Assembly: GCA_016860845.1 (NCBI GenBank) | Contig: BOKF01000043.1 | Coordinates: 1-64,000 of the forward strand | From: Chloroflexota bacterium | GTDB lineage: Bacteria > Chloroflexota > Anaerolineae > 4572-78 > J111 | Reading direction: 5' to 3' | DNA: 64,000 nucleotides | Shown here: in pieces, positions 30,167-62,781 of the stretch | How positions within the stretch are numbered: position 1 is the first letter of the stretch | Layout: the number at the start of each line of letters is the position of its first letter | The notes under the pieces: model-generated | What the model was told of the DNA's origin: nothing | The model's input: only the letters and a program-made list of their open reading frames with translations | The model's database searches: none | Position numbers and translations under genes: made by a program

Positions 30167-30340
30167 TTAAGGACGAGACCACCGATACGCTTCTGGTACC
30201 GGCTCAACACCTTCCCAGACTATGCGGCGGAAATACTCAGGATCGGTGTTGCCCTCAGAATTTATTAAGAGCACCTGAGAGTCACGCTCGAGCTTGAGTA
30301 GTTCCTTCAACGGCGCGTATTGAGCGCATATCGGATAGCT
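30167..30340 (-). pseudogene. C-terminal remnant of a diaminopropionate ammonia-lyase-like PLP enzyme
   Basis: Minus-strand translation gives YAPLKELLKLERDSQVLLIN, then SEGNTDPEYFRRIVWEG and a stop at 30167-30169. The S/T-E-G-x-TDP-x-x-(Y/F)RRIVW ending is typical of the YgeX/DpaL family. Only about 55 residues survive; the region from 30340 to 30466 shows no further homology in any frame. It indicates that a YgeX-like gene once preceded the CoxM-like gene here. Confidence 0.7.
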
Positions 30341-30466
30341 GCGCTAACGAAGCCTAAGTTGATTGCGACTATTGGCAGGTAACCACCAGCCGGTGGCGAT
30401 GTCTATCGTAAGCATGTAGAAAAAAAGGTGGTGTTTGTAGAACCGAGCACTTTACTCGCCTGGTTG

Positions 30467-32227
30467 CTAGAACAAACCTACAACTTTACCCGTCTCAAAA
30501 TCAATATCTACCTTCGTGAAAGCGGGCACGGAATTCAGACCCGGCATGGTCCGCATCGCGCCGACCAGCGGATAGATGAAGCCGGCCCCGGCGCTGGCCC
30601 GGACCTCGCGGATAGGCAGGGTAAAACCTTTTGGCCGGCCTTTCAAAGTAGCGTCGTGGGATAAGCTGAGGTGGGTTTTGGCCATGCAGATGGGCAGATT
30701 GCCCAGGCCGGCGTTTTCAAAGTTTTTGATCTGCTGATTGGCCGCTGCATCGTAGCTGACCCCGTCCGCGCCGTAGATGTCCCTGGCAATCTTTTCGATT
30801 TTCTGCTTGATGCTCCACTCCAGTGGATAGAGGAACTGGAAGTTGCCGGGCTTCTCGCAAGCAGCGACGACCGCTTCGGCCAGCTCTACGGCCCCTGGGC
30901 CGCCTCTGGCCCAGTGCTCGGACAGGACGGCTTGCTCGGCCCCGGCCTGAACGGCCAGCTTCTTGAGCAGAGTCACTTCATTGTCGGTGTCGGTGGGGAA
31001 GCGATTGATGGCGACGACCGCCGGAATGCCGAATTTTTGCACATTCTCGACATGGGCGGCCAGGTTCTCAATGCCCTTTTCCAACAGGTCCAGGTTTTCT
31101 TCGGTGTAAGCTTTATCCAGGGCGCGACCCGCCACCACCGTGGGGCCGCCGCCGTGCATTTTCAAGGCGCGGATGGTTGCCACCAAAACGACCGTGTTCG
31201 GAATCAGGCCGGAGTAGCGGCACTTGATGTCGAAGAACTTTTCCATGCCGATATCAGCCCCAAAGCCGGACTCGGTTATCACGTAGTCGGCCAACTTTAG
31301 CGCAATCTGATCGGCGACGATGGAGCTGTTGCCGTGAGCGATGTTGGCAAACGGCCCGGCGTGGACAAAGGCCGGCTGGCCTTCCAGGGTTTGCATCAGG
31401 TTGGGCATGATCGCGTCCTTCATTAAGACCGTCACGGCTCCGGCTACACCCAAATCCTCCGCCGTGACCGGCTTGCCGCTCTTGTCCAGGGCCACAATCA
31501 TCCGGCCAAAGCGCTCGCGCATATCCTTAAGACTGGTGGTCAGGGCCAGGATGGCCATAATCTCCGAAGCGACGGTGATGTCGAAACCGCCTGGGCGGGG
31601 AACACCGTCCAGCGCGCCGCCCAGGCCCAGCACAATGTTGCGCAGGGCACGGTCGTTAACATCCAGCACCCGGTTCCACTGAATGTTGTAAGGGTCAATA
31701 TTGAGCCGCTTCATGCCCAGCTTGGCCAGCTCCTCGTCACTCTGACGGCTTTCATGATACAGGCGGGCGTCGAGCGCCGCAGCGACCAGGTTGTGGGCGG
31801 CGGTAATGGCGTGGAAGTCACCGGTGAGATGCAGGTTGAAATCTTCCATCGGGATGATCTGGCTGTAGCCGCCGCCGGCAGCGCCGCCCTTGATGCCAAA
31901 AGTCGGGCCTTGACTCGGCTGTCGGATGCAGATCATGGCCTTTTTGCCGATGCAGCCCAGTCCCTGGGTCAGACCGACGCTGGTGGTGCTTTTGCCTTCA
32001 CCTAGAGGAGTTGGGGTAATGGCGGTCACATCCACATATTTGCCCTGGGGTCGATCTTTGAACTTCTCCAAAACATCCAGGTGGACCTTGGCCTTGTATG
32101 TGCCATACAAATCCAAATCTTCCTCGGTCAGGCTAAGGCTGGCGGCAATGGCTATGATCGGTTTGACTGTTGCTACTTGGGCAATTTCCAGATCACTGGG
32201 GACCGATTTTTTGTGTTCAATGGTCAT
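30467..32227 (-). CDS. fhs: Formate--tetrahydrofolate ligase
   Basis: The 586-residue enzyme shows the family P-loop [18 protein letters not shown] (about residue 68), [20 protein letters not shown] (about 97) and a C-terminal [19 protein letters not shown]. It ATP-dependently joins formate to tetrahydrofolate, giving 10-formyl-THF. ATG 32227 ([20 protein letters not shown]) is chosen: AAGGAG lies 11 nt upstream and SDLEIAQ is the usual family start. An in-frame ATG at 32323, with GGAG nearby, would add a 32-residue Lys/Thr-rich extension. It is the last gene of the BMP-type transporter operon (134 bp after the second permease), which suggests that formate arises from the imported compound. 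Confidence 0.95.
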
Positions 32228-32360
32228 TAAGTTGAACTCCTTTGTCACGTTTGTTGAATGATTTGCCATGTCTTTGGCGGTGTCTTTGGTGGCTGTTTTG
32301 GCCTGCTGGATTTTCTTGTCCATATTTACTGACTCCACGTCACTATGCGGGGCTACCCAA

Positions 32361-33338
32361 TTAACGCGCACCGCGAATATATGGTTTTCCCAATGTTTCC
32401 GGTTGCTCTGTTTTCCTGGTGCCGCGGAATAATATAAAAATTGTCAATAAGTAGGGCAACATCAACAATACTTCATAGGGAATATTCTCGCTCCCTAAGG
32501 TTTGAATGCGAAATTGGATTGCATCAGCAATGCCAAAAAGTAAGGCGCCAACCACCGCCAAAGAAGGCTTCCACTGGCCAAAGATGACCAGAGCGATAGC
32601 TATCCAGCCTCGGCCGGCAGTAATCCCTTCTCGAAAGACGTGCAATTGAGCAACGGTTAGTACGGCGCCGCCCAATCCGGCTAATGAAGCACCAATGAGC
32701 GTCGCGCTGTATCGAACTTTACTAACGCTGAGGCCTGAAGTTTCTCCTGCGCTTGGATTCTCGCCCATAGCCCGGATGTTAAGCCCCAGTGTCATTCGGT
32801 TGAGTAAAAACCAACTACCAAAAACAATCAGGATGGTGAGATAGAACGTAACATTTTGTGTAGACAGGATTGGGCCTAAGATTGGAATATCAGACAGGAC
32901 AGGAATATGGATAGGTTCAAAGCCAGTCACCCGGGGTGCTAAGGCTTCAAATTGCTGTCGAAATATGTAAGAACTCAGGCCATATCCCAGCAGAACCAGC
33001 ATAATGCTACTAATGACCTGATCCGCTTTGAGGGTTATGGATAGAATGGCCATAACCAGGCCCATCAGCAGTCCTACCCCGGCTCCCGCTAACAACCCCA
33101 ACCAGGCCGCTCCGGTTGGACCAATAGAGAAGATAAGGTTGTTTTCCAGATACCAGGTTACTGCAAAGCCGGTCATAGCGCCCATCAGCATCATGCCTTC
33201 TAGACCCAGGTTCAATATCCCCCCTTTTTCAGTTATGATTTCACCAATAACAGCCAAGAGGATGGGGATAGCCAAACGAATTCCCGCGGCCAGGATGGCT
33301 ACCAAAAAAGAAATTGACAGAATTTGTTCAGGCACCAT
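32361..33338 (-). CDS. BMP-type (nucleoside/purine) ABC transporter permease, YufQ/NupQ-like, system 1
   Basis: The 325-residue membrane protein has about eight hydrophobic segments. The family signature is [20 protein letters not shown] (about residues 31-50) and the C-terminal half has [20 protein letters not shown]. It is the second permease of the nucleoside-type ABC system whose genes run 37301 to 32361. It probably pairs with the protein at 33340 to form the channel. The ATG lies one base after the upstream permease stop, so they are translationally coupled. Confidence 0.92.
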
Positions 33339-33339
33339 A

Positions 33340-34428
33340 TTAAGACCTCCTCAGTCGGAAGTAGGCATCAAACCCCAGCACAAATAGAACCACCAGCGAT
33401 TGAATCGCGTCGGCCAGAGAGCGTGGTAAACCCGTGAGCGTGTGCATTGAGTTGGCTCCGATGCTCAATGCGGAAAAGAAGATAGCCGCAAAAAGTACGC
33501 CAGCCGGATGCATGCGCCCTAGTAGGGCCACCAGAATTGCGGTAAAGCCATATCCACCGGAAATTGCGCCTTTAAGACGGGTATGCAAATAGCTAACTTC
33601 CATAATCCCGGCCAACCCGGCTAAGGCGCCACTAAGAAGTAGGACATAGATGATCGTCCACTCAACCTTAACTCCGGCAAAGCGAGCAACACTTTCTTTG
33701 GAGCCAATAGCCCGCAATCGAAAGCCCATGGGCGTATGCCAAATAAGAACGTAAATTAGGGGAACCAGAGCCAGAGCGATCAAGACCCCCAGGTGTAGTC
33801 TCGTGCCAAATAAGTAGCTCAGACGAGCCGCTTTGACAAATTGGGCCGACTCAGGCAGGAAACCGTTGGGGTCTTTTAGAGGAGCTCGGCCCATATATTC
33901 AACAATGAAAATAGCAACATAGTTGAGCATCAGGGTTGTAATAATTTCGCTCATCCCGCGCCGAGTGCGAAGCAGGGCCGGAATTAAGCCCCACAACGCG
34001 CCGCCAATCATTCCGGCCACCAGAATAGCTGGAATTAATACGGTAGCAGGGAGGGTTGAAAATTGCAGGGCTATAACACTTCCAAATAACGCCCCGATGA
34101 AGTATTGCCCTTCAGCGCCAATGTTCCAAACCCGCCCTCTAAAGGCAACGGCCAAACCAAGCCCAATGATGAGCAAAGGAACTGTTTTCAAGATGGTTTC
34201 GGTTAATTGGCGCTTACCGCCAAATGCACCATTAAACATAGCCCGGTAGGCCGTAATAGGGTCGGCTCCCGCCATCATTATCAATACGGCGCCGATAAGC
34301 AACCCAATTACAATACCCAACAGTAGGGGGCCGAGCAGTTGTAGCAATTGATGCAGTTTTGTTTTTACCCTATCTAATTTGTCGGTTGTTAAACTAAGAT
34401 AAGATGATTGCTCCAGTGATTCTGTCAA
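33340..34428 (-). CDS. BMP-type ABC transporter permease, YufP/NupP-like, system 1
   Basis: This 362-residue membrane protein has a cytoplasmic N-terminus followed by LLGPLLLGIVIGLLIGAVLI. It shows VWNIGAEGQYFIGALFGSVI (about residue 100), a permease signature of the BMP/ribose-type systems, and GAISGGYGFTAILVALLGRM near residue 300. It is the first permease of system 1. The gene starts 16 bp after the ATPase stop. Homologous systems carry guanosine, other nucleosides or purine-like compounds; the ligand here is unknown. Confidence 0.92.
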   Translation of the reverse strand: MTESLEQSSYLSLTTDKLDRVKTKLHQLLQLLGPLLLGIVIGLLIGAVLIMMAGADPITAYRAMFNGAFGGKRQLTETILKTVPLLIIGLGLAVAFRGRVWNIGAEGQYFIGALFGSVIALQFSTLPATVLIPAILVAGMIGGALWGLIPALLRTRRGMSEIITTLMLNYVAIFIVEYMGRAPLKDPNGFLPESAQFVKAARLSYLFGTRLHLGVLIALALVPLIYVLIWHTPMGFRLRAIGSKESVARFAGVKVEWTIIYVLLLSGALAGLAGIMEVSYLHTRLKGAISGGYGFTAILVALLGRMHPAGVLFAAIFFSALSIGANSMHTLTGLPRSLADAIQSLVVLFVLGFDAYFRLRRS

Positions 34429-34444
34429 GGCCGTTACTCCTTTC

Positions 34445-35992
34445 TCAACTATGGTCAGGTTTCGCGCCGGCCATCATCATTCCTACCTGATGCATATTTT
34501 GCCTACTACTAGATACAATGCCCGTAACTTCGCCTCCATAGATCACGGCAATACGATCACTGAGGGCAAATATTTCTTCTAGTTCAGTGGAGATCAGGAG
34601 TACAGCGACCCCTTGATTTCGTTGTTCAATCAACGAACGATGCATATACTCAATCGCGCTGATATCTAAACCGCGTGTAGGTTGAGCCGCCACCAAGAAG
34701 CGCGGATTTAACGATAATTCTCGAGCCAGTATCATCTTCTGGGCATTGCCGCCCGAGAGTTTCCCCGCCAAAGTCCTGACTGAAGGCGTACGTACGTCAT
34801 ATTGTTTGATCAATTGTTCTGCGGCCCGATAGATAGCTTTATAATTGAGCAAAGAGCGTTGGGTATAAGGTTCCCGCCAGAATATCTCCAAAACCAGGTT
34901 TTCGGCAATGCTGACATCCTGAAGCATCCCCCGATTATACCGATCCGATGGAATATGCCCTACCTTCAACGCAATGATATCAGAAGGTGAATAATGAGTG
35001 ATTTCTCGACCATCAATCAGGATACGCCCCTTCTCAATCGGACGTAGAGCACGAAGGGCGTCTTCTAATTCTTGTTGCCCATTACCAGCAACCCCAGCAA
35101 GCCCCAAAATTTCGCCAGCCCGAATTTCAAGATTGATCCCCTTGACCGCTGGCAGGTTTCGTTCATCGCGCACCCACAAATCTTCAATAACCAGGCGCAC
35201 GTCGCCCGGAGTTGCTGGCTGTTTGGGTATATCCAGAAAAACCTCACGTCCAACCATCATCCTTGCCAAATCACTTTTGGTTATATTTTCTTTCTTGGAT
35301 TGCACTGTGCCAACGAGATGCCCATCCCTCAATACAGTTATGCGATCACTGATTGTCAATACTTCATTAAGTTTATGGCTGATAAAGACAATGCCGCGTC
35401 CTTGAGCCGCAAGGTCCTTGATGATTTTGAGCAATTCATCTGCTTCCTTGGGAGTCAATACTGCCGTCGGCTCATCGAGAATCAACACCTCAGCGCCCCG
35501 ATAAAGCGCTTTTAATATTTCAACCCTTTGCTGCTCGCCAACGGACAATTGCCATATTTCGGCGTCCGGATCCACCTGCAGGCCAAACTGCTCTGAGATC
35601 TCCCGAATTCGCTGATGTACTTTTTTCTTATCTTCTATAAGGGGGCCACGTGAGGAAGATTGTCCCAGAACGATATTTTCGGCCACGGTGAAAGGCTTGA
35701 CCAGTTGGAAATGTTGGTGAACCATCTCCAGGCCATTCTGAATAGCATCTTGGGCCGAGGCAAAATGAACCGGTTTGCCTTTGACAAAAATTTCGCCTTC
35801 ATCGGCATGGTATAGACCATATAAGATATTCATCAAGGTGGTCTTACCGGCTCCATTCTCGCCTAGCAGGGCGTGTACTTCGCCGGGATAAAGATCAAAA
35901 TCAATGTGATCGTTAGCCAAAACGCCGGGAAACCGCTTAACAATCCCTTTTAGGGTTATGATGGGGGTATTAGAAGATTGTGGAACTTGCAT
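34445..35992 (-). CDS. BMP-type ABC transporter ATPase with two nucleotide-binding domains, YufO/NupO-like, system 1
   Basis: The 515-residue protein carries two ABC domains. The first (about residues 10-235) has Walker A LLGENGAGKTTLMNILYG, signature LSVGEQQRVEILKAL and Walker B LILDEPTAVLTP. The second (about 255-500) has a degenerate Walker A region GVAGNGQQELEDAL, LSGGNAQKMILARELSL and a modified Walker B with Gln-Pro (VAAQPTRGLD). Such asymmetric ATP sites are normal for sugar/nucleoside ABC ATPases. ATG 35992 has AGGTG just upstream; GTG 35998 is also in frame. A long hairpin separates the gene from that of the binding protein. Confidence 0.93.
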   Translation of the reverse strand: MQVPQSSNTPIITLKGIVKRFPGVLANDHIDFDLYPGEVHALLGENGAGKTTLMNILYGLYHADEGEIFVKGKPVHFASAQDAIQNGLEMVHQHFQLVKPFTVAENIVLGQSSSRGPLIEDKKKVHQRIREISEQFGLQVDPDAEIWQLSVGEQQRVEILKALYRGAEVLILDEPTAVLTPKEADELLKIIKDLAAQGRGIVFISHKLNEVLTISDRITVLRDGHLVGTVQSKKENITKSDLARMMVGREVFLDIPKQPATPGDVRLVIEDLWVRDERNLPAVKGINLEIRAGEILGLAGVAGNGQQELEDALRALRPIEKGRILIDGREITHYSPSDIIALKVGHIPSDRYNRGMLQDVSIAENLVLEIFWREPYTQRSLLNYKAIYRAAEQLIKQYDVRTPSVRTLAGKLSGGNAQKMILARELSLNPRFLVAAQPTRGLDISAIEYMHRSLIEQRNQGVAVLLISTELEEIFALSDRIAVIYGGEVTGIVSSSRQNMHQVGMMMAGAKPDHS

Positions 35993-36073
35993 AGGCACCT
36001 GAAATCTCTATAACTAAACATCTGCCCCAAGTTGAAACCACAGACGGAAGGGGGCTGAACGGTTATTTGGATA

Positions 36074-36138
36074 GAGATGGAGTCCAAAGTGAGCCTTAGC
36101 AGAATTTTGGAGCAATGCTATACTTTGGACTCCATTTT
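36074..36138 (-). promoter_or_regulatory. 14-17-bp intergenic hairpin between binding-protein and ATPase genes, system 1
   Basis: ATGGAGTCCAAAGT (36077-36090) pairs perfectly with 36122-36135, and three further outer pairs are possible with wobbles. The loop is 31 nt. On the minus strand it lies about 69 nt after the binding-protein stop and about 80 nt before the ATPase start, without a T-run. This is the same position relative to the binding-protein gene as the hairpins at 5803, 16165 and 53438. Confidence 0.7.
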
Positions 36139-36206
36139 CTTGTATCAAAAAATTGACTTACAGACTACTGCCTTTTTGATTGCCAATTGCCATTTACCTA
36201 ATAGTT

Positions 36207-37301
36207 TTACTCTGAGGGCACAAAGGGGACTTCAAGCTCGCCGCCGACGATTTTAGCTTTGGCTGCTTCAACCTGCTCTAAGGCTTCAGCAGGTATCTTG
36301 TCAGCCAGAGCCGGGTTGACGACCACATCCAGCGAACCTTCGGCCACGCCAAACTGGTAGAAAGTTCCCTCAAAGTCAGTCATCATAGCTTCAAACAAGG
36401 GGTCCAAAATCCACACCAGATTGACCAGCACCTCATTGGAGCCGTTCTCCGACATATCGCCCACATAGCCGGTTACATAACCCCCGGCTTCTCTGGCGGC
36501 TTCAATTGCCCCAAAGGTTGGTCCCTGGCCACACTGAACCCAGAAATCAACCCCGGCTTCGCTCTGAGCCAGACCAGCCTCTTTGGCCTTGGACACATCG
36601 TTCCAATCACCGGTGGCCGTGACCAGTAACTCAGCCTTCGGGTTGACCGTTTTGGCTCCAGCTAAAGCCGCTTGCCCCATAGCATGGCAGACTGGAATGT
36701 CAAACCCATAAATAGCGCCCAGTTTGCCACTCTCAGAAACGTGTCCGGCGATGATACCCACCAGATAGGCGGCTTCATAGAAGGGCTGGTCATAGTCGGC
36801 TACGTTGGCCGCTGTACCGCCAATGCCGCCCGGCCAGGCAAAGTTAACCTCCGAGTACTCTTCGGCCACTTCAAACACGCTATCCTGATAACTGAAACTA
36901 TGGGCCACAATCGTTTCAAAGCCTTCATCGGCAAACTCACGCAGCACACGTGCTCCATCCGCGGCCGGAATGTCTTCGGCAAAGGCGGTCTCGTAACCCT
37001 TTGTTTTCAGAACCTCCAGGGCATTTAAGACGGCTTCATTCCACGAATTGTCGTCTGCTGGCCCACTCAACAACACTGCAATCTTGCCGGCTGATGAACT
37101 TTCTGTCTCCGCTGACGACTCCTCTCCCGCCGGAGTGACTTCTGATGATGCTTCCTCCTCCTGTGTCGGAACCGGCGTGACTTCCTCTTTTGCCGGGGTC
37201 GGTTGTTCGGCTGCCGGTTTCGCCGGTTGCTGACTACAAGCAACCAATAGCAGTGGACCGACCAATAACAAACCTATGATTTTGAAGTAGATTCTTTTCA
37301 C
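36207..37301 (-). CDS. BMP-family (PnrA-like) nucleoside/purine-binding lipoprotein, system 1
   Basis: The 364-residue protein has a lipoprotein signal (MKRIYFKIIGLLLVGPLLLV then AC, lipobox LVAC, Cys 22), a Pro/Thr/Glu-rich linker to about residue 70, and a BMP/Med domain. In the domain are KIAVLLSGPADDNSWNEAVL, ILREFADEGFETIVAH-like text (here VLREFADEGFETIVAHSFSY) and a GGIGGTAANVADY segment. Family members bind purine nucleosides or related compounds outside the membrane. It precedes the ATPase and permeases of the same system. A promoter with an inverted repeat lies just upstream (37338-37371). Confidence 0.92.
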   Translation of the reverse strand: MKRIYFKIIGLLLVGPLLLVACSQQPAKPAAEQPTPAKEEVTPVPTQEEEASSEVTPAGEESSAETESSSAGKIAVLLSGPADDNSWNEAVLNALEVLKTKGYETAFAEDIPAADGARVLREFADEGFETIVAHSFSYQDSVFEVAEEYSEVNFAWPGGIGGTAANVADYDQPFYEAAYLVGIIAGHVSESGKLGAIYGFDIPVCHAMGQAALAGAKTVNPKAELLVTATGDWNDVSKAKEAGLAQSEAGVDFWVQCGQGPTFGAIEAAREAGGYVTGYVGDMSENGSNEVLVNLVWILDPLFEAMMTDFEGTFYQFGVAEGSLDVVVNPALADKIPAEALEQVEAAKAKIVGGELEVPFVPSE

Positions 37302-37400: not shown

Positions 37401-38378
37401 CTAACCAGCATACAGTTCAGGGTTTACACAGTTGGGCAACCTTTGGCCGTTAAGCCCGGTCAGCAGGTTCTCTACCGCCATCAGCGACATCTTATCACGG
37501 GTGGGCTTGCTGGCGCTGGCGATGTGGGGGGCGATGATCAGGTTGTCGAGCTCGAGGAGGGGGCTGTCCATGGGCAGCGGTTCAGGGTCGGTCACATCCA
37601 GGGCGGCGGCGAAGATCTTGCCCTCTTTCAGGGCTTCGTACAGGGCCTGCCCGTCAACCACCGGGCCGCGCGAGGTGTTAACTAAGACCGCGCCGGGTTT
37701 CATCAGGGCCAGGGTGTCGCGGTTGATCAGGTGGCGGGTCTGCTCATTGAGGAGGGTGTGCAGGGAAATGAAGTCGGATTCGCGCAGCAGAGTCTCTAAA
37801 TCCACCGCCGTGCCCGGCAGATTTGAACCGGCTGCGACCATAGGATCGTAATAGAGAATGCGCATGTCAAAACCGCTGGCGCGTTTGGCCATTGCCTGGC
37901 CAATGCGCCCGTAGCCGATAATCCCCAGGGTAGCCCCGGTAATATCCGGGCCGAGCAAAATAGACGGTCCCCAGGTTTTCCACTTGCCGGCCCGGACATA
38001 GCGGTCGCCTTCAACCACCCGCCGGGCGGCCGCAACGAGCAGGGCAAAGGCAAAGTCGGCGGTGGCGTCGGTCAGGATGCCGGGGGTGTTGCCGACCGGG
38101 ATTTTGCGAGCGGTCGCCGCCGGGATGTCAATGTTATCAAAACCAACGGCGTGATTACTGATGACCTTGAGTTGAGGACCGGCAGCATCCATCAAGGGGC
38201 CATCAATCCGGTCGGTCAGCAGGCAGAGCAGGCCGTCCACCCCGCGCACCCGTTCCAGTAAAACCTCATAGGGCGGCGGTAATTCTTCGGTCCACAAATC
38301 AACCTCGCAGGTCGCCTTTACCAGGTCAAAGCCTTTATCCGGGATAATCCGGGTGACAAATACTTTGGGTTTAGCCAT
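37401..38378 (-). CDS. D-2-hydroxyacid dehydrogenase, glyoxylate/hydroxypyruvate reductase-like
   Basis: The 325-residue enzyme has the family layout: substrate domain start [22 protein letters not shown]-binding [20 protein letters not shown] (about residue 148) and the catalytic triad Arg in [11 protein letters not shown] (about 233), Glu in VTDPEPLP and His in APHIASAS. It probably reduces glyoxylate or hydroxypyruvate, or oxidises the corresponding hydroxyacid. Being the last gene of the long operon and next to an aminotransferase, it may handle the glyoxylate, glycine or serine carbon left after ureide or purine breakdown (inference). GAGGAG precedes ATG. Confidence 0.92.
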
Positions 38379-43141: not shown

Positions 43142-43185
43142 TATGCTCCTCCCTCGAAAATAAATCGCAAGCAGCGGTTGGGAAT

Positions 43186-49830: not shown

Positions 49831-49852
49831 GTCGTAGGTGACATTAAGGATC

Positions 49853-53410: not shown

Positions 53411-53437
53411 CCAAACCTCCCTCTATCACTCATGCTT

Positions 53438-53486: not shown

Positions 53487-53513
53487 ATCTGGCTTGCCGT
53501 ATTTTTTACGAAC

Positions 53514-54596
53514 TTAATCCGATTCCACCGGAGCTGGATTAAAAGGCACCTTAAGTTTGCCATTTATAATGTCCTGTCTGGCCTTACTTACCGCATCTTT
53601 CACTTCTTGGGGCAACTCGGAGTCAAAGTTGTGATAAGGTGCAATATCACATCCTCCTTCAGCCATACTATATACAATCTCTTTCATCGGGGCATCATAT
53701 GGTGTGCCGTTAACCTGATGTTCCCACCAGGCATCAATCAAATGGTGAATTACTGGGTCCCAACGAGCCAGGGTGCTGGAAACAACCACCTCTGGGGCAA
53801 GGGAGTTCTGATCCACATAGTGACCAAATGCCAGTGCGCCTTTTTCCTGAGCAGCCTCAAAGGGGCCAAATCGTTCGGCAAATATGATATCCGCACCTGC
53901 TGCGATTTGGGCCAAGGCAGATTCCTTGGCCTTGGGTGGGTCGAACCAACTCTCGATGTAGGTCATTTTTACCTTGACCTTGGGATTGACCGACTGGGCG
54001 CCGGCAATATACCCGTTTAGCGGCAGATTGACATTATCAAAAGGAAAGCCCGCCACAACGCCAATGGTATCAGCCTTGGTGGTCATCCCGGCAATCATGC
54101 CCAGCAAGTAAGCCGCCTCATGCACATACATTTGCACCCAGTACATATTGCCCCCGCGCGGTTCAAAGCCGGAACCCGAGGCGGCGATAAGCAGTTCAGG
54201 AAATCCCTGGCGCAGCGCGTCGGCGGAGTCCGGATAAACCCCGTGGTGCCACAAAATGCCGTATTCGCCAGTGTTAGCAAATTCGCGCATTACCCGCTCG
54301 CCATCTGGACTGGCAATGCTTTCGGCAAATTTATAGCTTATGTTGAGGCCATGGGGTTTTTCCGCAATTACCCGTTCCAGGGATTGGATCATGGCTGTGT
54401 TCCACGGTTCCTCCAGGGTAGACTGGTTCATCAGTGCAATTTTTAGTTCGGTGGGTGTATTTTGTGTTTTTTCCTGGACGACTGCTTCGCCGCCTTTATC
54501 TCCTGCTGGCTGCGGTGTTGTACCCCCACATGCGCCGGTCAAAACTGATACTATCAGTAATGGAACGATAATATGAAACCACTTTTTGTTAAACAT
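53514..54596 (-). CDS. BMP-family nucleoside/purine-binding lipoprotein, system 2
   Basis: The 360-residue protein has a lipoprotein signal (MFNKKWFHIIVPLLIVSVLT then GAC, Cys 23) and a short polar linker. The BMP domain contains LKIALMNQSTLEEPWNTAMI, MREFANTGEYGILWHHGVYP, MIAGMTTKADTIGVVAG and ADIIFAERFGPFEAAQEKG. It resembles the system 1 protein at 36207 only in fold, so it probably binds a different compound. The 166-bp gap upstream separates it from the amidohydrolase gene and may hold a promoter. AAAGGGG precedes ATG. Confidence 0.9.
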   Translation of the reverse strand: MFNKKWFHIIVPLLIVSVLTGACGGTTPQPAGDKGGEAVVQEKTQNTPTELKIALMNQSTLEEPWNTAMIQSLERVIAEKPHGLNISYKFAESIASPDGERVMREFANTGEYGILWHHGVYPDSADALRQGFPELLIAASGSGFEPRGGNMYWVQMYVHEAAYLLGMIAGMTTKADTIGVVAGFPFDNVNLPLNGYIAGAQSVNPKVKVKMTYIESWFDPPKAKESALAQIAAGADIIFAERFGPFEAAQEKGALAFGHYVDQNSLAPEVVVSSTLARWDPVIHHLIDAWWEHQVNGTPYDAPMKEIVYSMAEGGCDIAPYHNFDSELPQEVKDAVSKARQDIINGKLKVPFNPAPVESD

Positions 54597-54762: not shown

Positions 54763-56190
54763 CTATTTTGCTATTGGGTCGTATGGGAACGACCGACGCC
54801 AAATAGGTGTAGTGAGAGAAATACCATAGCGTTTTTCGGTGCGCTGTACCAGCGCGGCGGCCGATTCGTTCTGACGTTTGACAAGTTGCGGCAAATTGAC
54901 CCCAACCAGTTGACCATCACGTACCCGAATTTGGCCATTCACAATTGATAGATCGACCTGACCGGAAGCACACAACACTTGAGCGGCCACTGGGTCGTGC
55001 AAACCACCGGCAAAGGGAAGTTTGTGCATATTAATTGCAATCAGGTCGGCGGCCATACCGGGGGCCAGCATCCCGATGTCGTCCCTTCGGAGCAGCCGGG
55101 CCGAGCCCAAAGTAGCCAGTTCCAGCGCCTGCGTCGGCGACATGGCGTCTGCTCCAAAGTGAATACGTTGCAGAAGTAAAGCATTGCGGGCTTCATTCAA
55201 TAGGTTCGACGAATTATTGGCCGCACTGCCGTCTACTCCCAACCCTACGGCCACACCTTTCTTTAACAATGACGGTACCCGACAGCAGCCGGCAGCTGTA
55301 TACATATTGGAGTTTGGGCAGTGAGCTACCGCAGTGCCGGTGCGGGCCATTAACTCTATTTCATCATCTGAAAGAACCACTGCATGAGCATACCAGATAT
55401 CATCCCCAACCCAACCCCAATCTTCGGCCACGTATACGGAGCTTTTGCCGTAAGTTTCCAGCATATATTTGGCATCATCGGGACACTCGGCCAAATGGGT
55501 GTGGCTGCAAACGCCGTATTTGCGAGCCAATTCAACGCTGTCGTGCATCAGGCGAGGACTCACCGAAAATGGGGAACAGGGCGCATTGGCAATACGCACC
55601 ATCGCGCGTGGATTCGAGTCGTGGTAAGTCTTGATCAGATACTCGGTGTCGGCTAAAATATCATCTTCATCCTCAACGATGTGATCTGGAGGCAGGCCCC
55701 CTTTACTTTCACCCACCGACATACTGCCTCGTGCCAGGTGAAAGCGTATGCCAATATCCTGAGCTGCTTTGATACCAGTGTCAAAGCGCATATCATTGAC
55801 CTTAATGTAACTATGATCGACGGTAGTGGTGCAGCCAGATAATAGTAACTCAGCGTGGTTTATCATCGACGCGATATATTGGTCTTCGTCGGTCACTTCG
55901 CTCATCAATAAATATAAAACCCGCAGCCAGCTAAATAAGGAAACATCTTGTAGTGGGGGGATATTGCGTAACAAGCTCTGGAACATATGGTGATGAGTGT
56001 TTATGAGGCCAGGCATTACCATATGTCCGGACAGGTCAATCCTCCTGTCGGCCACCGGCAGTTCAGTATCGGCGGCGCCAATCTGTTCAATACCATTATC
56101 TCTGATAAGTATCCAGGTATTTTTCAGAACGCGGCGTTCTTCATCAAAAGTAGCCAGTGTATCGATTTTTTCCAATAATAATGTAGACAT
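54763..56190 (-). CDS. 8-oxoguanine-deaminase-like (TRZ/ATZ-family) amidohydrolase, copy 1
   Basis: This 475-residue enzyme starts MSTLLLEKIDTLATFDEERR. Metal and catalytic residues are in LINTHHHMFQSLLRNIP (HxH), CSHTHLAECPDD (His), YAHAVVLSDDEIELM (His) and VGLGVDGSAANNSSNL (Asp). FGADAMSPTQALELATLGSA is a family landmark. Such enzymes deaminate oxidised purines, triazines or related rings; 8-oxoguanine, guanine or isocytosine-like substrates are all possible. It is paired with the Mo large subunit at 56228, and the pair is repeated at 58576-62306. GGAG precedes ATG. Confidence 0.9.
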   Translation of the reverse strand: MSTLLLEKIDTLATFDEERRVLKNTWILIRDNGIEQIGAADTELPVADRRIDLSGHMVMPGLINTHHHMFQSLLRNIPPLQDVSLFSWLRVLYLLMSEVTDEDQYIASMINHAELLLSGCTTTVDHSYIKVNDMRFDTGIKAAQDIGIRFHLARGSMSVGESKGGLPPDHIVEDEDDILADTEYLIKTYHDSNPRAMVRIANAPCSPFSVSPRLMHDSVELARKYGVCSHTHLAECPDDAKYMLETYGKSSVYVAEDWGWVGDDIWYAHAVVLSDDEIELMARTGTAVAHCPNSNMYTAAGCCRVPSLLKKGVAVGLGVDGSAANNSSNLLNEARNALLLQRIHFGADAMSPTQALELATLGSARLLRRDDIGMLAPGMAADLIAINMHKLPFAGGLHDPVAAQVLCASGQVDLSIVNGQIRVRDGQLVGVNLPQLVKRQNESAAALVQRTEKRYGISLTTPIWRRSFPYDPIAK

Positions 56191-56227: not shown

Positions 56228-58543
56228 CTATTTGGTGGGTTCCGAAGAGGTTTCAGACAACGCATCCAGAGCCTTAAGCACCTTCTCCGGCGTGATCGGT
56301 AATTCCTGAATTCGCACACCCACCGCATTGTAAATGGCGTTGGCAATGGCCGCCGATGGGCCAATAATGGGCGGTTCTCCAATTCCTTTGGCTCCAAACG
56401 GCCCTTTGACTTCCGGGATTTCCAGCGGTATTGCTTCAATGGGCGGCATATCCAGAAAAGTCGGCAGCCGATAATCCAGAAAATTGGGGTTTTGTACCCG
56501 TCCTTCTTTAATTAACAGTTCTTCCCACAGGGCAAAACTAATTCCCTGCAAACCGCCTCCCTCAATTTGACCAATCACACCCTGCGGGTTGATCACCTGC
56601 CCAACATCGTGAACCGCAGTTAGACGCTCTACGGTTACCCGGCCGGTTTCCCGATCAACGTTTACCTCAGCAACGTGCGTGCCAAAAACAAAGCTTGCTT
56701 TGGGTGGTTCGGGATAGCCCTCGCCGACCGGCTCAGGATACGATGGTGCGGCCATATAAGAGCCGTGCCCTATAATAGGCCCGCCTTTAACAAGGCGGCT
56801 GATACCGCCCAAGGCCTCAAACGACAAACCCTCCTTTGGCCTGTTATGTGCAAAAACCCGGCCTTGCCCGGTAGTCAAGCCATCTACCGGAACTTGCAAC
56901 TGCTCGGCGGCCAGAACCAACAATTGCTGTTTAACCTCTTTGGCCGCCAGCCGCAGGGCATTTCCAGTATTGAATAGGGACCGGCTGGCAATTGACCCCA
57001 GGTCATAAGGGGAGGAATCGGTATCTACGGCGGCCACTGCGACGGCGTTCAGCGGCAGGCCCAGCTCTTCCGCCACAATCTGGGCCAGACCCGTATGATT
57101 GCCTGTACCCAGGTCAGTGATGCCGGTCAAAATTGTAACTGTACCATCCTCATTCAGTTTAACTACCGCCGACGAGGACAGCAACCCCATGTCGCCAATA
57201 GTATTGGCCAAACCAATACCCCGATAGCTACCTTTTTCTCCCTCACCAGCTTCCCAATTGGAGGCCGCCAGCGCTGCTTGCATCGTCTGCCCAACCGACA
57301 CTGACCGCAACGCCTGCGTATTCAAAATAACCTCTCCGTCGGCGGCCAGATTCCGTTGCCGAAATTCCACTGGATCCAGCCCTAGCCGATGGGCCACCAT
57401 ATCCATTTGCGATTCTGTGGCAAAAGTCATTTGGGTCAGTCCATAGCCCCGCATACAGCCAAAATTGGGGTTATTGGTATACACACCGTAGCCGGTCACT
57501 TCCGCGTTGGGAATCGCGTACGGCCCCTGAGCAAATGTTACGGCCAGGCCCACTGTACCCAAAGTGTGGTCAGAATAACCGCCGCAGTCAGCCACCATTT
57601 TTACCTGTTTGGCCGTTATTCGACCATCGGCCTTTACCCCCAGTTGAATAGTGATGATATACGGTGGGCAAGGCCGGCCGGCAATATGCTCCTCTTCCCG
57701 CGTCAGCATTAGCCGCACCGGTCGTCTCGCCTTGCGGGCCAGCAGAGCCACTATTGGCTCGACCGATGCCTTCAATTTACCGCCAAAGCCGCCACCCAAC
57801 GCCGTGCCCACCACCCGCACTTTGGTTAGCGGCCAATCCAACGCCGCTGCTACCTCTACCTGGCATGGAAATATCTGTTGGGTGGCGGTCCACACGGTTA
57901 GCTTGCCATTAAAATCAAAGCCGGCTGTCGCCGCTCGCGGCTCAATGTAAGCCTGGTGCATGGCCTGGGTGCGGAAGGTGTCTACAAAAACATGGTCGGC
58001 CTCGGCAAAGCCTGCTTCCAGATCACCCAGGTTCAAGCGAGTGTACAGGCAGACATTACCGTATTTTATAGCCGGGTAATGGGCGCTGTAATTATCCAAA
58101 TTGGGATGCACAATAGGTGCATCCGGCTCCATAGCTGCCAGGGGATCGAACACCGCCGGCAGGTCTTCAAACTCTACCTCAATCAGGTTGATTGCCTGTT
58201 GAGCAATCTTTTCACTGTCGGCAGCCACTGCCGCAATCGCTTCGCCCCGATGCCGCACCTTATCTTTGGCAAAGACTAATTGGTCTTGCAGATAAACACC
58301 GAAGGGTTTGGCCGAAGCATCTTCGGCGGTAACAACAGCGTGGACGCCGGGCAGTACTTCAGCGCGGCTGGCGTCTAGTCGGACGATACGAGCGTGGGGT
58401 CGGCCGCTCCACAGCACTTTGGCGTAGAGCATCCCCGGCAGTTGCAAATCGGCACCGTACACGGCCCGGCCGGTCACTTTATCGGTTGCGTCCAGGCGGG
58501 TATGGTGATGTCCCACTACGGAAAAGTTGTGTTGTTTGTCCAT
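56228..58543 (-). CDS. Xanthine-dehydrogenase-family molybdenum-binding large subunit, copy 1
   Basis: This 771-residue protein has the CoxL/XdhA-type layout: HHHTRLDATDKVTGRAVYGA at the start, QAYIEPRAATAGFDFNG, the Mo-binding GTALGGGFGGKLKASVEPI (about residue 230), NFGCMRGYGLTQ (about 350) and the catalytic Glu in GAKGIGEPPI (about 725). It hydroxylates a ring carbon using water and passes electrons to separate 2Fe-2S and FAD subunits (62323 and 62778). It has about the same length and motifs as the copy at 59985. ATG 58543 is used; an earlier ATG overlaps the previous gene. Confidence 0.92.
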   Translation of the reverse strand: MDKQHNFSVVGHHHTRLDATDKVTGRAVYGADLQLPGMLYAKVLWSGRPHARIVRLDASRAEVLPGVHAVVTAEDASAKPFGVYLQDQLVFAKDKVRHRGEAIAAVAADSEKIAQQAINLIEVEFEDLPAVFDPLAAMEPDAPIVHPNLDNYSAHYPAIKYGNVCLYTRLNLGDLEAGFAEADHVFVDTFRTQAMHQAYIEPRAATAGFDFNGKLTVWTATQQIFPCQVEVAAALDWPLTKVRVVGTALGGGFGGKLKASVEPIVALLARKARRPVRLMLTREEEHIAGRPCPPYIITIQLGVKADGRITAKQVKMVADCGGYSDHTLGTVGLAVTFAQGPYAIPNAEVTGYGVYTNNPNFGCMRGYGLTQMTFATESQMDMVAHRLGLDPVEFRQRNLAADGEVILNTQALRSVSVGQTMQAALAASNWEAGEGEKGSYRGIGLANTIGDMGLLSSSAVVKLNEDGTVTILTGITDLGTGNHTGLAQIVAEELGLPLNAVAVAAVDTDSSPYDLGSIASRSLFNTGNALRLAAKEVKQQLLVLAAEQLQVPVDGLTTGQGRVFAHNRPKEGLSFEALGGISRLVKGGPIIGHGSYMAAPSYPEPVGEGYPEPPKASFVFGTHVAEVNVDRETGRVTVERLTAVHDVGQVINPQGVIGQIEGGGLQGISFALWEELLIKEGRVQNPNFLDYRLPTFLDMPPIEAIPLEIPEVKGPFGAKGIGEPPIIGPSAAIANAIYNAVGVRIQELPITPEKVLKALDALSETSSEPTK

Positions 58544-58575
58544 AATACTGTCCTGAAACAAAATTATCCGGCTCG

Positions 58576-59982
58576 CTACCAGGAGCGTTCTACAAAACTG
58601 CGGCCAAACCGTTTTTCGGTACGCTTTACCAGTTCAGCCGCCAGCCGATTCTGCTCGTTGATTAATGTCTCTACATCTGCAGTAAGTAATTGGCCGCCCT
58701 CAACCACCACCTGCCCATTGATGGCCGAAAAGCTCACCTGGGCAGGGGTACAGAATATAAGTGCCGCTACCGGGTCGTGCAGCGCCCCGGCGTAGCCAAG
58801 CTGATGCAGAGTAACCCCAATGAAATCGGCGGCCATGCCGGGTTGTAGTACACCGATGTCATCCCGTCGCAATAACTTTGAGCCTTGTAGTGTAGCCACT
58901 TCTAGGGCCTGGGTTGCTGTCATAGCGTCGGCGCCGTATTTGACCCGCTGCAATAGCATAGCCTGGCGCACTTCGGCCAGCATATGGGAGGAGTCGTTGC
59001 TGGCGCTGCCATCCACACCCAGCCCCACGATCATCCCCGCCTGTAGCATATCCCGCACCCGCGCTATTCCAGAGCCGAGGCGCATATTGGAACAGGGGCA
59101 GTGGGCCACTGCTGTGCCGGTATTAGCCATACGCTTGATTTCGCTATCGTTCAGATGGACTCCGTGAGCATACCAAACATCACCTCCAAGCCAGCCCAGG
59201 TCGGCGGCGTAATCAACCGGTCGCTTGCCATATATTTCCAGACAGAATACTTCCTCATCTTTGGTTTCGGCCAGATGTGTGTGCAGGCCAACGCCATATT
59301 TGCGGGCCATTTCTGCACTCTCGCGCATCAGTCGCTCACTGACCGAGAACGGTGAACAAGGCGCCAGCTCAATGCGCACCATCGCTCCCGGGTTAGGGTC
59401 GTGATAGGTTTGCACCAGACGCTGGCAGTCGGCCAGAATATCATCCTCATCCTCAACTATATCGTCTGGGGGAAGCCCGCCCTGCGATTGCCCAACAGAG
59501 AAACTGCCTCGTCCCAAATGGAAGCGTATCCCCATCTCCTGAGCGGCCCTGATTTCAGTGTCAAACGCGGTGTCGTTGACGGCCAGATAGAAGTGGTCTT
59601 CGGTGGTAGTACAACCAGATAAAACTAACTCGGCCAAAGCCAGCCGAGAGCTCGCATAGACCATTTCATCCGTCAGGCTACCCATCAGCAGGTATAAATC
59701 CTTAAGCCAGGGAAACAGAGATACATTTTGGAGTACTGGAACACTACGCAGCATTGTTTGAAAAAAGTGGTGGTGCGTATTCACTAGCCCTGGCAGGACA
59801 ATATGTCCCACCGCATCCAGCACTTTATCGGCCTCCGGGGTTACTTCGCCAGCATCACCAATCGCGGCAATCATGTTGTTTTGCACCAGGAGCCAGCCGT
59901 TCTGAATGACGCGGCGCTGGTCGTCCATTGTCACCAACCAGTCTATATTCTTTACCAGCAACGATGGTATGGGTTCAGGCAT
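58576..59982 (-). CDS. 8-oxoguanine-deaminase-like (TRZ/ATZ-family) amidohydrolase, copy 2
   Basis: The 468-residue enzyme mirrors the one at 54763. HxH is in LVNTHHHFFQTMLRSVP; His in GLHTHLAETKDEE; His in YAHGVHLNDSEIKRM; Asp in VGLGVDGSASNDSSHM. MPEPIPSLLVKNIDWLVTMD is taken as the start; the ORF is open 32 codons upstream into the preceding gene. It begins 2 bp after the Mo large-subunit stop, so both are translated together. The two copies are clearly paralogs but differ throughout, so they were probably duplicated long ago and may act on different oxidised purines. Confidence 0.9.
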   Translation of the reverse strand: MPEPIPSLLVKNIDWLVTMDDQRRVIQNGWLLVQNNMIAAIGDAGEVTPEADKVLDAVGHIVLPGLVNTHHHFFQTMLRSVPVLQNVSLFPWLKDLYLLMGSLTDEMVYASSRLALAELVLSGCTTTEDHFYLAVNDTAFDTEIRAAQEMGIRFHLGRGSFSVGQSQGGLPPDDIVEDEDDILADCQRLVQTYHDPNPGAMVRIELAPCSPFSVSERLMRESAEMARKYGVGLHTHLAETKDEEVFCLEIYGKRPVDYAADLGWLGGDVWYAHGVHLNDSEIKRMANTGTAVAHCPCSNMRLGSGIARVRDMLQAGMIVGLGVDGSASNDSSHMLAEVRQAMLLQRVKYGADAMTATQALEVATLQGSKLLRRDDIGVLQPGMAADFIGVTLHQLGYAGALHDPVAALIFCTPAQVSFSAINGQVVVEGGQLLTADVETLINEQNRLAAELVKRTEKRFGRSFVERSW

Positions 59983-59984
59983 TA

Positions 59985-62306
59985 TTAAACCTCGTGGAAT
60001 TTCTTTTGATTTTCTTTGGCCTGCGCATCCAGCGCTTTCAATACCTTTTCCGGGGTGATAGGCAAGTCGTGAACCCACACACCCACTGCGTCGTAAATGG
60101 CGTTGGTAATTGCTGCCATCGGTCCCATAATTGGCGGTTCCCCAAGACCTTTTGCGCCAAACGGTCCCGTTTCATCCACCATTTCAACTACAACCGCTTC
60201 GATAGGGGGGGCATCCAGAAATGTTGGCAAGCGGTAATCCAAAAATGAGGGGTTACATACCTGACCTTTGTCTAGCAGCAGTTCTTCCCATAAGGTGCAG
60301 CTAATGCCCTGCAGCCCACCCCCTTCTATTTGACCCACCACCCCCTGCGGGTTGATAACCTGGCCCACATCGTGTGCGGCGGTCAACCGATCTACCGTTA
60401 TCTGACCGGTTTCCCTATCTACCGTTACCTCAGCTACGTGGGTACCAAACACAAAAGTTTTTGAAGGCGGCTGGGGATACCCCTCGCCTACCGGCTCGTT
60501 AAAGCCCGGCTCACCCAGATAGGCCCCCCGGCCTATAATCGGGCCGCCTTTGAAAAACAGGCTGATACCGGCTATAGCTGCAAAGGAGAGCCTTTCTGTG
60601 GGGTTATCTTTTATGTAAATACAACTTTCACCGAAAGATAGCCGGTCAACAGGAACCTTCAACTGGCCGGCAGCTACCTCCAACATCTGTTTCTTGGCGT
60701 CTTTGGCTGCCAGTAAAAAGGCGTTGCCTGTGTCAAAAACGGTACGGCTGGCAATCGGCCCCAGGTCATAAGGGGAACTATCAGAGTCAACCGCAGCAAC
60801 GGCCGTTTCCGACAGGGGAATTCCCATCTCCTCGGCTACAATCTGAGCCAGAGCAGTTTGATTACCTGTACCCAGGTCCATAGCGCCGGTCAGCAAATTA
60901 ATGGTGCCGTCCTCATTCAGCTTTATGATGGCCGATGAGGATAGCAGGCCCATATTCAAAATGATATTAGCCATACCAATGCCGCGCCCATCCTCTTTCC
61001 ATTCATTTCTTTCTTCCCAATTTGAGGCGGTCAGCGCAGCTTGCATCGTCTGGCTAACCGAAACCGAGCGTAGTTTCTGCGTCGATAATATCTGTGTTCC
61101 TTCAGAAGCAATGTTGATCTGCCGGAATTCTACCGGATCGATCTCTATCCGGGCTGCAACCTTATCCATCTGCGCTTCATTGGCGTAATTCATTTCCTTG
61201 GCCCCATAACCGCGCATACACCCAAAGTTAGGATTATTGGTGTAAACGGCGTAGGCAGTCACTTCCGCATTGGGTATATCGTAGGGGCCTTGAGCAAAGG
61301 TCATTGCCAGGCCCACTGTGCCCAGCGCATGGTCAGAATATCCGCCACAGTCGGCCACCACCTTTACTCGTTTGGCCGTTATCTGCCCATTGTTTTTGAC
61401 ACCCATCTTGATGGTAATGGAATAGGGTGGAACCGGACGCCCGGCCAGGTGTTCCTCCTCGCGAGTCAGGGTCAATCGCACCGATCGCCCCGACTTGCGG
61501 GCCAACAAGGCCACAATCGGCTCTACTGAGGCCTTTAACTTACCGCCAAAACCGCCTCCCAAACCGGCGCCGATAACTCGCACTTTTGTCAAGGGCCAAT
61601 CCAGGGCTGCGCTCACTTCAAGCTGGCAGGGGAAGATCTGCTGGTTAGAGGTGTAGACGGTCAGCTTGCCATTAAAATCAAAACCGGCCACCGCCGAACG
61701 CGGCTCAATGTAGGCCTGATGGATCGGCTGGGTTGTGAAGGTATCTTCAAAAACATGGTCAGCATCGGAAAATCCCGCTTCCAGGTCACCTTGACTCAAT
61801 TTTGAATACATGGCAACATTGCCGTATTTAATGGCCGGATAAATGGCCTCATAACTTTCAATATCGGGGTGGACGAGAGGTGCGTCCGGCTCCATCGCTT
61901 CATACGGGTCAAAGACGGCGGGTAGATTTTCATATTCAATTTCGATCAAACCAATCGCCTTTGTGGCAATTTTTTGGCTTTCGGCGGCTACCGCTGCAAT
62001 CGCTTCACCGCTGTGGCGCGTCTTTTCATTGGCGAAAACACACTGGTCTTTCAGATATACGCCAAAGGGCTTTTTCGAAGCATCTTTGGCGGTCACAACG
62101 GCATGAACACCGGGCAGCGCTTCAGCCTTGCTGGTATCCAGCCGGACGATGCGGGCGTGAGACCGGTCACTCCACAGTACTTTAGCGTAAAGCATCCCTT
62201 GAAATTGTAGGTCTGTGCCGTACACCGTCCTGCCGGTGACTTTATCGAGGGCGTCAAGGCGAATATGAGGGCGGCCTATTACAGAAAAGCCGCTTTTTTT
62301 GTTCAT
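59985..62306 (-). CDS. Xanthine-dehydrogenase-family molybdenum-binding large subunit, copy 2
   Basis: The 773-residue protein shows IGRPHIRLDALDKVTGRTVY at the start, QAYIEPRSAVAGFDFNG, GAGLGGGFGGKLKASVEPIV (about residue 232), NFGCMRGYGAKEMNYAN (about 355) and the catalytic Glu in GAKGLGEPPI (about 728). It is the partner of the 2Fe-2S subunit 17 bp upstream and of the FAD subunit before that, forming a three-subunit hydroxylase. The copy at 56228 probably shares these electron-transfer subunits. AGGAG precedes ATG. Which ring position or substrate is hydroxylated cannot be told. Confidence 0.92.
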   Translation of the reverse strand: MNKKSGFSVIGRPHIRLDALDKVTGRTVYGTDLQFQGMLYAKVLWSDRSHARIVRLDTSKAEALPGVHAVVTAKDASKKPFGVYLKDQCVFANEKTRHSGEAIAAVAAESQKIATKAIGLIEIEYENLPAVFDPYEAMEPDAPLVHPDIESYEAIYPAIKYGNVAMYSKLSQGDLEAGFSDADHVFEDTFTTQPIHQAYIEPRSAVAGFDFNGKLTVYTSNQQIFPCQLEVSAALDWPLTKVRVIGAGLGGGFGGKLKASVEPIVALLARKSGRSVRLTLTREEEHLAGRPVPPYSITIKMGVKNNGQITAKRVKVVADCGGYSDHALGTVGLAMTFAQGPYDIPNAEVTAYAVYTNNPNFGCMRGYGAKEMNYANEAQMDKVAARIEIDPVEFRQINIASEGTQILSTQKLRSVSVSQTMQAALTASNWEERNEWKEDGRGIGMANIILNMGLLSSSAIIKLNEDGTINLLTGAMDLGTGNQTALAQIVAEEMGIPLSETAVAAVDSDSSPYDLGPIASRTVFDTGNAFLLAAKDAKKQMLEVAAGQLKVPVDRLSFGESCIYIKDNPTERLSFAAIAGISLFFKGGPIIGRGAYLGEPGFNEPVGEGYPQPPSKTFVFGTHVAEVTVDRETGQITVDRLTAAHDVGQVINPQGVVGQIEGGGLQGISCTLWEELLLDKGQVCNPSFLDYRLPTFLDAPPIEAVVVEMVDETGPFGAKGLGEPPIMGPMAAITNAIYDAVGVWVHDLPITPEKVLKALDAQAKENQKKFHEV

Positions 62307-62322
62307 TTTGTTATCTCCTCTG

Positions 62323-62781
62323 TCATCCGGCGGCCGATTTGAGGGCGGCCATAATTCGACCATACCCGGTACAGCGGCAGATGTTGCCGGCCAGGTGGAA
62401 TCTTATCTCTTCTTCGGTTGGGCGCGGATTTTCATCAAGCAGGGCTTTGGCGGCTACAATAAAGCCGGGCGTACAGTAACCGCATTGAACGCCCCCTTGG
62501 TCAATAAATGCCTGCTGCACCCGATGCAGTTTTCCTTGGATAGCCACCCCTTCAATCGTAGTAACCTCCGAACCTTCCGCCGCCATTGTTAATACCAGGC
62601 ACGAAGTAACAGCCCGTCCATTTAGAAGGACGGTGCAGGCGCCACAGTCGCCGGTACCACAGCCCTCTTTGGTACCGGTTAAACTTAAACGGTCACGCAG
62701 GGTGTCTAACAACCGCTCGTCAGGGTCAACCGTGACCCGATAAACCTTACCGTTAATGTTTAGTTCGATGGAATGGGTCAT
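62323..62781 (-). CDS. Molybdenum hydroxylase 2Fe-2S subunit (CoxS/XdhC-type)
   Basis: The 152-residue protein has two [2Fe-2S] domains: plant-type GCGTGDCGACTVLLNG and Cys in AVTSCLVL (residues about 40-65), and a helical domain with QCGYCTPGFI (about 100) and NICRCTGYG (about 135). It shuttles electrons from the Mo subunit to FAD. It overlaps the FAD gene by 4 bp (ATGA), a sign of translational coupling, and GGAGGAAAGG precedes its start. Confidence 0.95.
   Translation of the reverse strand: MTHSIELNINGKVYRVTVDPDERLLDTLRDRLSLTGTKEGCGTGDCGACTVLLNGRAVTSCLVLTMAAEGSEVTTIEGVAIQGKLHRVQQAFIDQGGVQCGYCTPGFIVAAKALLDENPRPTEEEIRFHLAGNICRCTGYGRIMAALKSAAG

Follow-up and report, generated by a model that had tools for sequence, protein, structure and literature searches.

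A putative F420H2-dependent variant of the reductive urate pathway in a purine-related gene island of Chloroflexota

The reductive urate pathway of Escherichia coli and Clostridioides difficile, which was biochemically resolved only in 2025 (PMC12507026, PMC12990295), comprises XdhD-YgfM, YgfK/UacX, SsnA, HyuA, YgeW/UacY, YgeY and YgeX (PMC12507026). The available text of the 2025 work also holds a brief prediction for Chloroflexota, said there to be without YgfK/UacX: an F420-dependent yanthine reductase, an F420-type PF00296 protein, beside SsnA. That text makes no mention of NpdG or of the Cof genes. F420 production and Fno homologs have been described in Chloroflexi by a review of this cofactor (PMC8498797), whose accessible text mentions neither “purine” nor “urate”. 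Here, we analyse a stretch of 64,000 nucleotides from a Chloroflexota bacterium (hereafter, the window; contig BOKF01000043.1 of assembly GCA_016860845.1). Its minus arm (29140-63659) is a long series of co-directional genes, which an initial annotation made from the sequence alone had taken for an island for purine/N-heterocycle degradation, akin to the SsnA set, and perhaps for a distinct route. Our results support this proposal, with the distinct element residing mainly in an F420 module formed by an LLM-family protein and the NADPH:F420 oxidoreductase NpdG.

As in the reductive urate pathway, the window carries an SsnA above the curated cut-offs, a fused FeS-Mo hydroxylase in the same run of genes, and relics of both a FAD subunit and YgeX (Table 1). 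Unlike in that pathway, LLM and NpdG are found where YgfK/UacX stands, the hydroxylase is not XdhD, and HyuA, YgeW and YgeY are missing from the window, whereas deaminases, extra Mo subunits, a Rieske oxygenase, a methyltransferase and BMP importers are added. NCBIfam and Pfam scans support almost all the genes named in the initial annotation, from whose list for this island NpdG, above its curated cut-off, was absent. From the fused hydroxylase to SsnA, the spacing between genes goes from an overlap (alpha/beta hydrolase and hydroxylase) up to roughly 110 bp, and 17 bp separate LLM from SsnA. We read the minus arm as a reductive urate pathway in an F420H2-dependent form, with 8-oxopurine deaminases as its front end, and give this reading a probability of roughly 0.6. 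Every reaction and substrate in it is one that we infer. The direct observations are the gene identities at the family level, the pairing of SsnA with LLM, the linkage of F420 genes to SsnA among relatives, and the absence of LLM beside YgfK or UacX-like genes (genome G171 excepted). The pairing of SsnA with an adjoining F420-type PF00296 protein agrees with the 2025 prediction for the same phylum; unlike that prediction, some Chloroflexota do have a YgfK or UacX-like gene, and in many others F420 genes are linked to SsnA.

Both in fold and in sequence, the LLM protein is closer to F420 enzymes (the Mer/FGD/Adf group) than to FMN monooxygenases, and we propose it, on sequence and a structure model, as a putative F420H2-dependent oxopurine reductase. 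It differs from Mer proper, the F420-dependent methylene-tetrahydromethanopterin reductase: the protein falls under both Mer equivalog cut-offs (179.1/276 and 170/348.7), and its gene is linked to purine genes. The window encodes a second Mer-like LLM protein at 9517-10539(+), adjoining an aldehyde dehydrogenase and three NMT1/THI5-type binding proteins.

Relatives of the window SsnA were found in Anaerolineae, Caldilineaceae, Chloroploca and others (best 80 of 353 kept), and 40 of those 80 were searched genome-wide (G001-G040). In view of these relatives, a SAR202 origin, considered at first from the gene content, was set aside. LLM occurs at >=70% in 29 of these 40 genomes, two of them with fragments (G015, G033). 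Among 151 Chloroflexota genomes, those with a close SsnA (E<=1e-100 to the window protein) have LLM in 20 of 21 cases, versus 4/130 for those without; these counts join separate draws made at equal settings and taken as one set by their matching handle numbers, and the distant SsnA proteins (34-41%) adjoining YgfK in G066, G091 and G171 (loci L179-L181) are excluded from the 21. Of 73 related loci, 31 have an NpdG homolog downstream of SsnA, frequently accompanied by F420-biosynthesis genes, as judged by tblastn matches at E<=1e-12 for F420-type genes; the reference CofC, CofD and CofE are above curated cut-offs and the FbiB C-terminal-like reference is below its own (143.5 vs 249.55). Two further genes of the island have relatives near LLM: the D-2-hydroxyacid dehydrogenase (65% in G043, 55% in G041) and the pyridoxal phosphate (PLP) aminotransferase (39-42% in G041, G163 and G171).

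YgfK is present above cut-off in the Chloroflexota genomes G017, G020, G022 and G035, and as a fragment in G032. In three Chloroploca genomes (G010-G012; loci L013, L015 and L016), a PreA/dihydroorotate-dehydrogenase-type gene, whose product we call UacX-like, lies between YgeW and the hydroxylase-SsnA pair. LLM gave no match at E<=1e-60 in any of these eight, and CofD is missing from all five genomes with YgfK. Likewise, an F420-type gene is nearby in 0/8 SsnA loci with a YgfK or UacX-like match, or 0/7 without the doubtful L011, whose 33% UacX-like match on the opposite strand may be an ordinary dihydroorotate dehydrogenase. Five loci, L011 among them, carry a UacX-like match. L060 (G035), with no YgfK match in the stretch covered, stands outside the 8-locus count. 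This distribution is the one that a non-orthologous replacement of the dearomatising reductase would produce. Fisher values count the genomes as independent; on the SsnA tree, the LLM, YgfK and UacX states need only 3 changes. For this tree, a locus not among the 40 received the LLM label if NpdG, CofE or LLM stood near SsnA; L064 received it from NpdG alone (its genome, G036, gave no LLM match), and 23/82 rows are unlabelled.

The fused hydroxylase had been described as XdhD-like, an identity rejected here by its score against the XdhD model (TIGR03313, 349.5 bits vs a cut-off of 1101.9) and by the lack of the insertion that holds Glu606 in XdhD. Its best model is that of the selenium-dependent xanthine dehydrogenase, just short of the cut-off, and the models of CO dehydrogenase (318) and PaoC (293) stay far under its best scores. 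Residues E406, R514 and E866 align with those that we take to be E802, R880 and E1261 of bovine xanthine oxidase, the first two being the xanthine-binding pair; E. coli XdhD, unlike the window protein, has Gln at both the E802- and R880-equivalent positions. Orthologs of the fused hydroxylase (71-79%) adjoin SsnA together with YgeY and YgeW in Chloroploca; their companions are YgeY, YgeW and YqeA in G025, but BMP importers in G001, G002 and G018. The two additional Mo-hydroxylase large subunits of the initial annotation were recovered, the first adjoined by FeS and FAD subunits. They reach 607-609 with their best model versus about 310-359 with those of CO dehydrogenase and bacterial aldehyde oxidoreductase; in the same assumed numbering, both have Leu at the E802 position, and the first has Arg at that of R880.

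In the pathway that we propose, uptake of purine bases or nucleosides would fall to the BMP-type importers, the two 8-oxoguanine-deaminase-like enzymes would turn 8-oxo-aminopurines into urate-level compounds, and the fused hydroxylase would alter the oxo pattern, either from urate to yanthine or by interconverting xanthine and urate. NpdG would generate F420H2 from NADPH, and the Mer-like LLM protein would pass a hydride from F420H2 to the oxopurine with loss of aromaticity, which is the job of YgfK in E. coli and of UacX in C. difficile. SsnA would then hydrolyse the reduced ring, drawing the reaction forward, and later steps (the YgeY class and others) would be encoded outside the window. 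YgeY is found above cut-off in 33/40 related genomes; YgeW is above cut-off in 0/40, with relatives at 34-41% near SsnA in a number of loci.

Several observations weigh against such a pathway. No CofC, CofD, CofE or FbiB-type match is present within the window, and the closest loci keeping 10 kb 3′ of SsnA (L001, L003, L005 and L007; 81-82%) have no adjoining F420 gene; these neighbourhoods were defined by tblastn, and labels based on open reading frames (ORFs) agreed that the closest SsnA loci fall outside the clusters. In G001, G002 and G004, LLM lies on contigs other than that of SsnA, and G006 carries just a 48% LLM relative. CofH, the FO synthase, was detected in 1/40 genomes at E<=1e-90, a cut-off that may overlook divergent FO synthases. 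CofD (TIGR01819, E<=1e-20) was found neither in G003 nor in six LLM-positive genomes (G018, G023, G025, G027, G028 and G029), which form one SsnA clade where several have NpdG and CofE adjoining SsnA. The rarity of CofH although CofD is common (27/40 SsnA-positive genomes) leaves FO uptake or a divergent FO synthase as options.

The replacement pattern is not clean either. Chloroploca has CofD (3/3) though it is without LLM; L011 lies in G009, whose LLM adjoins CofD and CofC on another contig; G171 holds LLM (65%) and YgfK in one cluster, the sole such genome of the 151; and the exclusivity rests on few events because of the small number of label changes on the SsnA tree. Concerning the fused hydroxylase, its top PDB match by phmmer is an aldehyde oxidoreductase with the same domain layout, and it scores 595.8 with the aldehyde oxidoreductase model NF045668, also of the same layout (cut-off 1100; third of 20). 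Moreover, Glu606 lends no support to a urate-to-yanthine step here, because its insertion is missing from the window protein, and its substrate-orienting role in XdhD is itself a model in the available text (PMC12507026). Finally, YgeX, a relic in the window, was found in 0/29 LLM-positive genomes at E<=1e-60, and therefore their final step must be a different one or depend on a distant enzyme. Just upstream of SsnA, L042:8607-9980 encodes a 457-aa protein of the cysteine-synthase/ammonia-lyase fold that passes no cut-off, and this protein is a candidate replacement for YgeX.

Some of these facts would fit a different substrate. LLM and SsnA could act on another N-heterocycle, such as a pterin, a pyrimidine or a deazaflavin breakdown product, in an island for general N-heterocycle scavenging. 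We regard this as unlikely, although F420-biosynthesis genes following SsnA in many relatives might fit an F420-related heterocycle, and the two extra Mo subunits without the E802-type Glu of xanthine dehydrogenases, as well as the missing YgeX, point the same way. However, the same SsnA family is accompanied by xanthine dehydrogenase, YgeW and YgeY in the F420-gene-free Chloroploca loci (L013, L015, L016), and by YgeW, YqeA and YgeY in the LLM-type locus L042, and the frequency of YgeY among the related genomes also disfavours general scavenging.

Decay of the island, with a pathway no longer working, is quite improbable. The YgeX-like and YgfM-like remnants reported initially are real but small: the former has 58 aa, solely from the C-terminus of diaminopropionate ammonia-lyase, and the latter about 80 residues with a weak TIGR03312 match, and sharing 43% identity across 81 aa with the FAD gene found in locus L011. 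These relics, the IS4-, IS5- and IS701-type genes and a shortened amidohydrolase would be in keeping with decay, as would the lack of HyuA, YgeW and YgeY, for which, as for YgfK, the E. coli queries gave no match in the window at E<=1e-3, in line with the initial annotation. Nevertheless, the minus arm has its catalytic genes in long open frames, the majority of them spanning almost an entire family profile, and the LLM protein shares 87-92% identity with its 120 best database relatives. Gene scattering also seems normal in these bacteria, because the best YgeY and LLM are on separate contigs in G001, G005 and G009; in G001, the contigs are C5 for LLM, C4 for YgeY and CofH, and C2 for CofD. 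E. coli YqeB, YqeC and MocA, a Chloroflexota YgfK and the Chloroploca UacX-like protein likewise gave no match in the window at E<=1e-3, and genes missing from it may sit elsewhere in the genome. The shortened amidohydrolase, at 26491-27372(+), is of the 5′-deoxyadenosine/8-oxoguanine deaminase class, has an in-frame stop, and adjoins an IS5-type transposase split across two frames (27467-28422(+)). As for LLM being a RutA-like FMN/O2 monooxygenase which, with the Rieske oxygenase, would open the ring oxidatively in aerobic Chloroflexota, both the sequence scores and the structure model lie nearer to F420 enzymes and make it very unlikely.

Returning to the F420H2-dependent reading, its front end depends on the accessory genes. 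Both 8-oxoguanine-deaminase-like enzymes of the initial annotation pass the PRK08203 cut-off, and for both the nearest PDB entries are 3hpa, labelled only as an amidohydrolase, and 7ww2, an 8-oxoguanine deaminase. In three further genomes, relatives of the first are found beside LLM or close to it. On these two grounds, the cut-off passed by both deaminases and the relatives of the first near LLM, oxidised purines are plausible substrates of the island. The BMP family is linked to nucleosides, and the two importers proposed initially are sets of binding protein, ATPase and permease; importers with a binding protein 59-70% identical to that of importer A adjoin LLM-Rieske in G001 and G002. Near LLM in these two genomes, there is also a TadA-like deaminase below the TadA cut-off (L137:19066-19539 and L135:18010-18531), which may be a guanine deaminase with a cytidine-deaminase fold.

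The formate-tetrahydrofolate (THF) ligase exceeds its cut-off, and so does the pterin methyltransferase, one of the three modules, with the Rieske oxygenase and LLM, that the initial annotation had regarded as additions. The closest solved relatives of the Rieske protein are the methylxanthine N-demethylases NdmA/NdmB (NdmA being some 33% identical in the model alignment), with dicamba and SxtT/GxtA-type enzymes trailing within about 2 Z units. Rieske genes adjoin LLM in G001 and G002, and the one tested is nearer SxtT/GxtA; no NdmD-type reductase turned up among the scanned ORFs of the window, to which the search for a reductase was confined. Of the methylated or oxidised purines suggested at first, the oxidised ones are plausible; with NdmA as the nearest solved relative of the Rieske protein, the methylated ones are possible but no more than suggested. 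In a wider and still tentative reading, an O2-dependent Rieske N-demethylase and the 8-oxopurine deaminases could feed F420H2-driven dearomatisation, so that methylated and oxidised purines, with damaged nucleic acids or alkaloids as their source, would be demethylated, deaminated and then reductively opened.

In the plus arm of the window, the gene with a PuuE-like label fails the allantoinase model (TIGR03212, 81.6 bits vs 424.6) and encodes a polysaccharide-deacetylase-family protein. At 20140-26433(+), a single run contains 2-oxoacid dehydrogenase E1 and E2, two SDRs and a UbiD-family decarboxylase.

Table 1. Genes and relics of the minus arm, with the evidence for each (scores in bits)
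Feature	Position	Strand	Evidence
FAD subunit, Mo-hydroxylase	62778-63659	-	XdhB-type 237 vs cut-off 310
[2Fe-2S] subunit, Mo-hydroxylase	62323-62781	-	glyceraldDH gamma 201 (cut-off 290); XdhC 191.6 (cut-off 217)
Mo-hydroxylase large subunit 1	59985-62363	-	4-HBCR / xanthine dehydrogenase class, 608.6 and 527.6, below every cut-off
8-oxoguanine-deaminase-like amidohydrolase 1	58576-60078	-	PRK08203 655.8 vs cut-off 532
Mo-hydroxylase large subunit 2	56228-58561	-	class as subunit 1, 607.1 and 528.6, below every cut-off
8-oxoguanine-deaminase-like amidohydrolase 2	54763-56190	-	PRK08203 587.4 vs cut-off 532
BMP-type ABC importer B (binding protein, ATPase, two permeases)	49853-54596	-	NF047927-047930 relatives, all below cut-off
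IS4-type transposase, between importer B and fused hydroxylase	48625-49917	-	119.5 vs cut-off 152
Fused FeS-Mo hydroxylase	45853-48573	-	TIGR03311 812.2 vs cut-off 830.45
Alpha/beta hydrolase	45011-45886	-	profile scan
SDR oxidoreductase	44232-44978	-	profile scan
Pterin-dependent (methyl-THF) methyltransferase	43302-44177	-	PRK07535 306.8 vs cut-off 259
Rieske non-heme iron oxygenase	42092-43192	-	closest solved structures NdmA/NdmB
LLM-family protein, putative F420H2-dependent oxopurine reductase	41060-42067	-	Mer-like, sequence and model
SsnA amidohydrolase	39705-41042	-	PRK07203 536.1 vs 444; TIGR03314 503.4 vs 455.5
PLP aminotransferase	38417-39613	-	profile scan
D-2-hydroxyacid dehydrogenase (glyoxylate-reductase-like)	37401-38378	-	389.1 vs cut-off 455
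BMP-type ABC importer A	32361-37301	-	below NF047927-047930 cut-offs
Formate-THF ligase	30467-32371	-	PRK13506 816.1 vs 800
YgeX (diaminopropionate ammonia-lyase) C-terminus relic	30170-30343	-	PRK08206 36.6, E 1.8e-9, profile 359-399/402
YgfM-like FAD subunit relic	29862-30182	-	TIGR03312 24.9
NpdG, NADPH:F420 oxidoreductase	29140-29796	-	TIGR01915 219.8 vs cut-off 149.8

What is already published is the reductive urate pathway as a kind and, for Chloroflexota, the bare notion of an F420-dependent variant, a branch that has rested until now on a short prediction. In the free-licence PMC literature, we saw neither a characterised F420-dependent enzyme of purine breakdown nor a report of F420 biosynthesis or recycling genes linked to SsnA; likewise, the NpdG/Cof linkage, the replacement pattern, the corrected identity of the hydroxylase and the larger island were not seen in that literature, and are what we add here. 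The genomic evidence makes one enzyme reaction directly testable. If our reading is true, purine dearomatisation would join the roles of F420 in bacteria, and environmental Chloroflexota would be indicated as purine recyclers.

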